Virus record (IMG/VR): IMGVR_UViG_3300036850_000081
Location: 1-41,338 of that record
Origin: a virus
DNA: 41,338 bases
Strand: one strand, 5' to 3'
Under the pieces are notes generated by a model. That model did no database searches. It was not told where the DNA came from and saw nothing but the letters and a program-made list of their open reading frames with translations. This document shows positions 13,920 to 30,910 of this stretch, in pieces (position 1 is the first letter of the stretch; the number at the start of each line of letters is the position of its first letter). Made by a program: the position numbers and the translations under genes.

Positions 13920-13929
13920 CACATAGAGC

Positions 13930-13981
13930 GGCCCGGCGGCGCGTCAACGCCCCGGGCCCGGCACAGGAGATGTGAGCTCCC
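13930..13981 (+). promoter_or_regulatory. Structured leader, copy A (recombinase 5' region)
   Basis: The 52 bases before ATG 13982 contain hairpin I: outer arms GGCCCGG (13930-13936) and CCGGGCC (13952-13958), a bulged C at 13937, inner arms GGCG and CGCC, and loop CGTCAA (13942-13947). A 7-base linker CGGCACA follows. Hairpin II pairs the Shine-Dalgarno GGAG (13966-13969) with CTCC (13977-13980) across 7 bases. A second copy with identical geometry lies on the minus strand at 30741-30792, with two compensatory base-pair changes in hairpin I. This suggests a conserved RNA structure controlling translation. The ligand or binding protein is unknown. No run of T follows hairpin I, so it is not a classical terminator. 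Confidence 0.65.
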
Positions 13982-14716
13982 ATGCAACCCGACCCTACCC
14001 CGGACACCGTCCGCCTGCTCGACGTCTGTGGGCGTCTACGGTCGCCGGCGACGCTGCCCGGCTTCCACGCTGGGCGCCCACCAGCCACGAAGGGCCGACG
14101 CTACCCGGCCGATCCGATCGCCGTCGAGGACATCGCCAAGCTGCTGTGGGCGATCAAGCCCGCCAGCGCCGACCGACGCCACCAGCTCTCCGCGCAGCGC
14201 CTGCGCGCGCTGATCGTGCTGCTGTGGCGCTCGGGGCTGCGCATCAGCGAGGCGCTGGCGCTCGAGGAGCGCGACCTCAACCGCGGTGACTACGCGATCA
14301 CCGTCCGGCGCGGCAAGGGCGACAAGCGGCGCATCAGCGCCATGGACGACTGGGGCTGGCACGAGCTCCAGGCCTGGCTGGACGTCCGCCAGCGCCTGCC
14401 ATTCGGTGCCGTGTTCTGCGTCCTGTCGGGGCCGACGATCGGCCAGCCCCTGTCGTCCACCGATGCTCGCCGGCAGCTGCGCGAGCTCGGAGCGGCGGCG
14501 GGGCTGCGCCGGCGGATCAACCCGCATGCCTTCCGTCACCAACACGCGGTCGAGCTGTGGCGCGAGGGCGTTGACGTGTACGCGATCCAGCGCCAGCTCG
14601 GCCACGCGCGCCTCGACGTGACCGCCGAGTACCTGCGCGGGATCGCGCCGCTCGAGCTGCTCGAGCCGATCGGACGGCGCCGTGCGCCGACGATGGCGGT
14701 GCCGCACGCCGCGTGA
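13982..14716 (+). CDS. Tyrosine recombinase / integrase, catalytic domain only
   Basis: 244 residues. The full active-site set is visible: Arg87 in SGLRISEAL, Lys112 in RRGKGDKRR, His182-x-x-Arg185 in NPHAFRH, His208 in LGHAR and the nucleophile Tyr217 in AEYLRG. Only about 45 residues precede the catalytic domain, so the usual SAM-like core-binding domain of about 100 residues is missing. It would catalyse integration, excision or another site-specific exchange. The gene sits inside the structural module, next to the spike gene, not near the repressor. It has its own leader (13930-13981), which implies separate control. An excisionase-like protein is encoded at 37274-37537. Confidence 0.85.
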   Translation: MQPDPTPDTVRLLDVCGRLRSPATLPGFHAGRPPATKGRRYPADPIAVEDIAKLLWAIKPASADRRHQLSAQRLRALIVLLWRSGLRISEALALEERDLNRGDYAITVRRGKGDKRRISAMDDWGWHELQAWLDVRQRLPFGAVFCVLSGPTIGQPLSSTDARRQLRELGAAAGLRRRINPHAFRHQHAVELWREGVDVYAIQRQLGHARLDVTAEYLRGIAPLELLEPIGRRRAPTMAVPHAA

Positions 14717-30228: not shown

Positions 30229-30312
30229 CTACTCGTCGTCGATTCGCCATATCATGGTGGTGGCGACGATCGCCGCGAACGTCCCCCCCGTTTTTGAGCG
30301 CGCGCGGCTCAT
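30229..30312 (-). CDS. Possible 27-residue peptide after the lipoprotein
   Basis: On the minus strand the lipoprotein stop overlaps an ATG (30312-30310) that opens MSRARSKTGGTFAAIVATTM and ends WRIDDE. The ATGA overlap and a short hydrophobic centre are the only support. It would be the last gene of the leftward lysogeny transcript. Confidence 0.3.
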   Translation of the reverse strand: MSRARSKTGGTFAAIVATTMIWRIDDE

Positions 30313-30740
30313 TTGCGGTCGAGGCACATCGCCACGGACTTCGTGTAATGCAGCGGGTCCTTGCCCTTGAGCGGGCCAGTCACGGAGTACTTCCCAGCCA
30401 CGTACGCCTCGATTGCGGAGACCCAGGAGATGGCTTCGATGGCATCTGCTTCGGAACGCTCGCGTTGGACGATGATCGCCGTGCCGTTGATCGGGTTCAT
30501 TCCGCGCCACATCGTCGACATGCGCTGTTCGGGGTCCATCGTGCCCTGCTTACGCAGGCAGCCCATCGGACTCGGACGGTGGGGCTTGGGCGAGGTTCGG
30601 CCCATCGGCGCGCTGTGCTCACGATCTGTGACGCGCTGCTCGCTCGCCGACGGCAGGGAATCGCTGGCGCAGCCAGCACTGAACGCGGCGGCCGCGGTGA
30701 TCAGGGCGAGCATGGTGGCTCGCGTACCCTTGGTGTGCAT
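30309..30740 (-). CDS. Secreted lipoprotein, candidate lysogenic-conversion or exclusion gene
   Basis: 143 residues. The first 24 are a lipoprotein signal (MHTKGTRATMLALITAAAAF then SAGC, Cys24). The mature part has a Ser/Pro/His-rich linker and a C-terminal region with two further cysteines (PMGCLRKQG, AMCLDRK) and GMNPINGTAIIVQRE. The start has AGGAGGAG upstream, inside a structured leader. It is the only non-regulatory gene on the minus strand and lies downstream of the repressor in the same orientation. That is the usual place for a gene expressed in the lysogen. Phage lipoproteins in this position often block superinfection, but no family is recognised here. Confidence 0.75.
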   Translation of the reverse strand: MHTKGTRATMLALITAAAAFSAGCASDSLPSASEQRVTDREHSAPMGRTSPKPHRPSPMGCLRKQGTMDPEQRMSTMWRGMNPINGTAIIVQRERSEADAIEAISWVSAIEAYVAGKYSVTGPLKGKDPLHYTKSVAMCLDRK

Positions 30741-30792
30741 GGGAGATATCTCCTCCTGTGCCGGGCCCCGGACGTTGGCGCGTCGCGGGGCC
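30741..30792 (-). promoter_or_regulatory. Structured leader, copy B (lipoprotein 5' region)
   Basis: Read on the minus strand, hairpin I has outer arms GGCCCCG (30792-30786) and CGGGGCC (30770-30764), a bulged C, inner arms GACG and CGTC, and loop CGCCAA. The linker CGGCACA is identical to copy A. Hairpin II again pairs GGAG with CTCC across 7 bases, one base before ATG. Relative to copy A (13930-13981) there are no indels. Two positions in the stems changed together with their partners (G-C to C-G, and G-C to A-T), and one change is in the loop. Confidence 0.65.
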
Positions 30793-30910
30793 GACGGTGG
30801 CCCGAGCGTCGGGGCCCTACAGTCCGCCCCTCGATCAAGTATCGGCCGTTTCGCGCCCGGCCTGAACTACTAGCGTTGATGCGCCAGGTTCTCGGCGACC
30901 GGGAGGATTT

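Follow-up and report, generated by a model that had tools for sequence, protein, structure and literature searches.

Probable cis-antisense RNAs over the start codons of mobile-element genes in Actinomycetota

Introduction

Antisense RNAs known from mobile elements are mostly single systems, each tied to one gene. RNA-OUT is a single long hairpin directed against a DDE transposase mRNA, and Sar of P22 and OOP of lambda are short, single-locus antisense RNAs with a terminator hairpin, encoded against a phage regulatory gene. In IS10, RNA-OUT lies over the ribosome binding site of the transposase gene and blocks its translation (PMC7968456). In plasmid R1, the antisense RNA CopA covers a leader and repA is translationally coupled to tap (PMC5717011). 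Here, we report on a structured element present twice in the virus record IMGVR_UViG_3300036850_000081, whose complete stretch of 41,338 nucleotides is termed the window. The record belongs to a tailed phage; the contractile tail is our own reading of its open reading frames (ORFs). One copy of the element (copy A) precedes a tyrosine recombinase gene, the other (copy B) a lipoprotein-like ORF. Each copy probably represents a small gene for a cis-antisense RNA that spans the leader, the Shine-Dalgarno (SD) sequence and the start codon of its target gene and would block translation; transcription, pairing and repression are inferred from the sequences.

Like RNA-OUT and CopA, the predicted RNA is encoded opposite the ribosome binding site of its target and covers the SD sequence and the AUG. 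As in the RNA-OUT/RNA-IN pair of IS10/Tn10, many targets are recombinase genes, which the RNA would repress. Membership of the RNA-OUT group was nevertheless rejected, as the family has two hairpins and the proteins encoded downstream are tyrosine recombinases, helix-turn-helix (HTH) proteins, Cas1 and others. It also differs in its many unrelated targets, in the lack of an insertion sequence and in having no Rfam match. The CopA/CopT tap-repA arrangement of R1 has a possible parallel in a viral subset of the family, where a short leader ORF in many cases ends in a stop codon overlapping the integrase start. By contrast, most members cover the start codon of the target itself, and replication initiators do not make up the bulk of the targets. 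With Sar and OOP the family would share a short antisense RNA with a terminator hairpin, but it is found at more than 100 loci in phages, plasmids and chromosomes of Actinomycetota. Cis-regulatory leaders listed in Rfam (riboswitches, SD sequestrators) are likewise structured and hide the SD sequence and AUG; unlike them, the element has no Rfam match on either strand and its selected fold is antisense.

Results

Copy A (13930-13981, plus strand) and copy B (30792-30741, minus strand) align without gaps. Reading of both copies confirmed the five differences within hairpin I, including two compensatory pairs, that a preliminary description of this two-copy leader had listed. A 25-base core matched twice in the real window and not once in 100 dinucleotide shuffles of it. 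A search of the window with cmsearch returned E-values of 7e-13 and 1e-12 for the two copies, both of which belonged to the training set of that model; independent proof is therefore provided by the later copies in untrained genomes. Overlooked at first was that the start codon is part of the structure: on the sense strand, the GCA in the linker is paired to the UGC in AUGC. On the opposite strand, these hairpins show both a better fold and better conservation.

With the bare hairpin as BLAST query, this architecture was also recovered from plasmids of Streptomyces, pFP11 among them, and a pattern scan of viral contigs yielded four more true copies. The covariance model R1, built from copies A and B and three of these four viral copies, recovered the untrained Streptomyces plasmid copies with E-values of about 3e-7 to 5e-7 as well as some 20 additional viral members. 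It also matched named contigs of Solirubrobacter soli DSM 22325 and Streptomyces swartbergensis. In genome searches, for which E-values are rough and samples were unweighted for relatedness, R1 was positive in 43 of the 299 Thermoleophilia genomes, some of which have as many as five copies. The antisense-strand covariance model R2 detected the element at E 1e-3 in 26 of 397 genomes of Actinomycetota and at E 1e-2 in 39 of 247 Streptomyces genomes. In total, the family has more than 100 members, distributed over soil virus contigs, Solirubrobacter and other Thermoleophilia, Streptomyces and Streptomyces plasmids.

The initial impression that no family of this shape had been described held up. 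Rfam 15, applied at the gathering score to both strands of the window, gave no match, and on four family loci it produced chance-level matches only, all outside the element. A hairpin BLAST against 50,697 phage records gave weak, chance-level matches, none of which had a second consensus, and a megablast of window bases 1-25000 against phages found no match. No description of the element was encountered in the searched literature, with most subscription papers and all bioRxiv preprints lying outside the reach of that search. What is new, within the reach of these searches, is the family itself, its distribution among unrelated targets and the lack of an Rfam counterpart; the mechanism class, antisense control of translation, is already known.

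The covariance-model search for homologs that the preliminary description had put forward was successful. The pairs covary very strongly. Across 101 aligned members, 98.2% of the cells pair, double changes occur in 15 of 17 pairs and the covariation score is 0.421, compared to 0.124 after shuffling and no more than 0.067 in slid controls, figures which are biased towards the structure because the alignment was fitted to it. Some double changes are visible by eye, as GGAG/CTCC is replaced by CGAAG/CTTCG and GGCA/ATGC by GACA/TGTC.

The strand carrying the selected RNA was deduced from the non-Watson-Crick cells. If the coding-strand RNA were under selection, these cells should favour G·U. In the helix pairs of the 101 members, however, the coding strand has 30 A·C or C·A cells and a single G·U, and the ratio is 27 to 0 in the sense-model alignment of 31 further untrained members (15 were found in the Streptomyces genus search and 16 in genomes of other Actinomycetota). 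Since A·C on the coding strand corresponds to G·U on the other strand, the selected RNA is antisense. The two columns of the sense ‘internal loop’ in the 101 members agree with this strand: one is C·A in 88 members, the other A·C in 49, C-G in 33, A-T in 5 and G-C in 5, and all these combinations form pairs on the antisense strand. There, the 2x2 internal loop of the sense strand becomes a helix continuation with tandem U·G/G·U, making hairpin II one unbroken 9-bp helix. One of the tandem pairs covaries (G·U 12, C-G 6, U·G 2 in alignment A6). In 105 of 106 members, the antisense strand folds more stably than the sense strand, by a median of 5 kcal/mol, and inspection of ATG-less members showed the antisense -10 box and hairpins to be retained in four of five. 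The strand test thus moves a leader-like motif to the antisense strand.

Possible transcription signals were identified on both strands. In 78 of 106 members, the antisense motif TANNNT (sense ANNNTA) has an offset of 10 or 11 relative to the A of the ATG, and in 85 it falls within offsets 9-14, compared to a mean of 4.7 and a maximum of 12 in shuffles. In most members this -10 box lies 6-7 nt ahead of the first base of hairpin II, the position at which the start of the RNA is therefore predicted. At the other end, the 10 nt before hairpin I on the sense strand contain on average 4.8 A (background 1.7), with at least five A in 59 members and in 1 of the background, which corresponds to a U-rich tail of the antisense RNA. 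On the sense strand, TANNNT is enriched at a distance of 22-30 nt ahead of hairpin I, with about 75-80 of 106 members having it and no more than 22 in shuffles, and due to this position the antisense RNA would be complementary to almost the entire sense leader. The gene upstream is oriented forward in 30 cases, reverse in 20, unclear in 23 and on too short a sequence in 33, so that there is no consistent divergent gene.

The 111 downstream proteins comprise 38 with Phage_integrase, six with HTH_3 and three with Cas1, others having HNH or SWIM. Further targets are plasmid replication genes, a plasmid ATP-binding protein and a lipoprotein. The earlier wording of two lysogeny-type genes was too narrow, as the targets are very diverse, though mostly of the mobile-element type. 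The start-codon position is occupied by ATG in 97 and by GTG in 2 of 106 members, and in a Kitasatospora plasmid the annotated coding sequence begins exactly there; the start codon of the target genes appears to be real.

Some 20 members, mostly viral, have a short ORF beginning at the ATG, with the integrase encoded in the +1 frame. The stop codon of the short ORF overlaps the integrase start in many of these, often as ATGCGTGA, while most other members lack such an overlap. The RNA of this viral subset may thus cover a short upstream ORF that is predicted to be translationally coupled to the integrase. ORFs of 14-29 codons with a ATGNNTGA stop/start overlap precede the viral integrase at loci L086, L148, L165, L179, L159, L166, L162, L200 and others. 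At the same loci (L086, L148 etc.), integrase-like residues extend upstream of the integrase start in the integrase frame. These residues suggested a programmed +1 frameshift between the ATG and the integrase frame, a reading that was not maintained, given that in many of the viral members an in-frame ATG or GTG overlaps the stop codon of the leader ORF and that in other members the frame continues from the ATG without interruption.

Some target proteins deserve separate mention. In Thermoleophilia, a Cas1 with an N-terminal zinc-finger-like segment is encoded behind the element at L360:107-1504 (minus), L386:382-1770 (plus) and L398:327- (plus). The best PDB match of the L360 protein is 6opm, which we take to be a casposase; casposons in Thermoleophilia are possible. 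At the Streptomyces loci L433-L447, the element precedes proteins beginning with M(R/Q)xHR that have a weak HTH_36 match and are possibly replication-initiator-like. A protein family of 82-97 amino acids, winged-helix-like by eye, follows the element at the Thermoleophilia loci L327, L331, L333, L350, L367 and L377; the L327 protein has no Pfam match.

In the window, the predicted antisense RNA of copy A, 5'-GCAUGGGAG..., occupies positions 13920-13985 of the minus strand, with its 5' end at about 13985 and its 3' end at about 13920 (R2: 81.7 bits, E 4.9e-15, copy A being in the training set). Its hairpin II (13961-13985) is the 9-bp helix with tandem U·G/G·U and a 7-nt loop, which on the sense strand contains GGAG (13966-13969) and AUGC. 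Hairpin I (13930-13958), a probable terminator hairpin, has a 7-bp stem, a 5-bp inner stem, a 4-nt loop and a single bulged G (C on the sense strand), and is followed by a moderately U-rich tail, GCUCUAUGUG (13920-13929). The antisense -10 box TAGGGT (13992-13997, minus strand) is situated within the reading frame of the target gene, a tyrosine recombinase of 244 amino acids (13982-14716, plus strand; Pfam Phage_integrase, E 1.2e-26). For copy B, the predicted antisense RNA is located at 30737-30802 on the plus strand (R2: 72.7 bits, E 3.2e-13, copy B being in the training set), with hairpin II at 30737-30761 and hairpin I at 30764-30792, after which follows GACGGUGGCC. Its -10 box TACCCT (30725-30730, plus strand) lies within the reading frame of the lipoprotein-like target ORF (30309-30740, minus strand; 143 amino acids), to which no Pfam or NCBIfam family could be assigned. 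This moron-like ORF is on the strand opposite to most of its neighbours.

Discussion

The family and its covariation, the strand, the position of the -10 box, the U-rich tail, the location over the SD sequence and AUG and the gene context are directly observed. They are consistent with a backward-firing promoter that has its -10 box within codons 4 to 6 of the target. Transcription would start opposite the C of AUGC and yield an RNA of about 65 nt, composed of the 9-bp 5' hairpin II, a short linker, the GC-rich terminator-like hairpin I and the U-rich tail. Being complementary to the leader, the SD sequence and the start codon of the target, the RNA would pair with the nascent mRNA and block ribosome binding, and the duplex may be exposed to RNase III. 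As an outcome, mobile elements would keep their integrases, regulators and replication genes at a low level. The hypervariable loops may give each copy its own specificity; that they differ even between copies within one genome fits such private specificity.

Several observations weigh against this mechanism. A -35 consensus for the antisense promoter was looked for and not found, and the sense promoter has a weak one. The U-rich tail is missing after hairpin I of copy B, a generic terminator scan calls no terminator at copy A, and a strict sense TANNNT promoter is present at neither window copy. The A·C and G·U counts are partly non-independent, as the cells come from related sequences. Moreover, the sense mRNA folds too and hides its own SD sequence, so that the leader could act without an antisense RNA. 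An mRNA 5' untranslated region of this kind, riboswitch-like, protein-bound or self-repressing, with the antisense transcript absent or irrelevant, agrees with the enriched sense TANNNT promoter at a suitable distance, with the sequestration of the SD sequence and AUG and with their fixed positions. We regard it as improbable, since the sense pairs avoid G·U and carry A·C (30 to 1 and 27 to 0), the variation in the A·C columns is almost confined to combinations able to pair on the opposite strand, and the -10 box in codons 4-6 and the antisense U-rich stretch past hairpin I would stay unexplained. A riboswitch proper, i.e. a sense-strand aptamer with conserved structure, was rejected on account of a sense strand with A·C in place of wobble pairs. 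What stands of the cis-acting RNA of the preliminary description is a structured RNA at the translation initiation of mobile-element genes; the riboswitch-like or protein-bound leader on the sense strand is not supported, given the wobble asymmetry, the -10 box position and the U-rich tail.

The antisense-strand RNA might also be real but lie over the start codon by chance, acting in trans on other mRNAs or a protein or serving as a divergent 5' untranslated region. Several copies per genome, the retention of fold and -10 box in members without ATG and a reversed upstream gene in 20 of 73 cases examined would suit such an RNA. It is improbable in view of its constant register relative to the sense start codon (ATG in 97 and GTG in 2 of 106) and the sense promoter, the absence of a consistent divergent gene and the loops that differ between copies of one genome. 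Very improbable is an element acting as DNA, such as a recombination site or a dyad operator beside the integrase, with the hairpins as a by-product of a palindrome. Integrases are indeed frequent neighbours (38 of 111 downstream proteins) and inverted arms flank a variable 7-base spacer as in a recombinase core site, but the stem sequences vary freely with pairing preserved, the conservation of bulge and loop and the wobble asymmetry are strand-specific, and non-integrase targets occur on plasmids and chromosomes. The wobble asymmetry already largely refutes this explanation and rules out a mere DNA palindrome. A tyrosine-recombinase attachment site was likewise ruled out, because the element also precedes lipoprotein, HTH, HNH, Cas1 and plasmid ATP-binding protein genes and its conservation is strand-specific.

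A further idea is conceivable but doubtful: a portable antisense-RNA control module of Actinomycetota mobile elements might combine one two-hairpin scaffold with private loops and be attached to phage-type regulators, to replication genes of plasmids and to recombinases as unrelated as tyrosine integrases and casposase-like Cas1. A single host or phage protein might then recognise features of the scaffold, such as its conserved tandem U·G/G·U helix and fixed linker, creating a common regulon. A probable antisense RNA family supported by covariation is present in roughly one in seven of the sampled Thermoleophilia and Streptomyces genomes. Its targets are genes that decide on integration, excision and replication, and it offers a testable general route by which actinobacterial phages and plasmids may silence their integrases.
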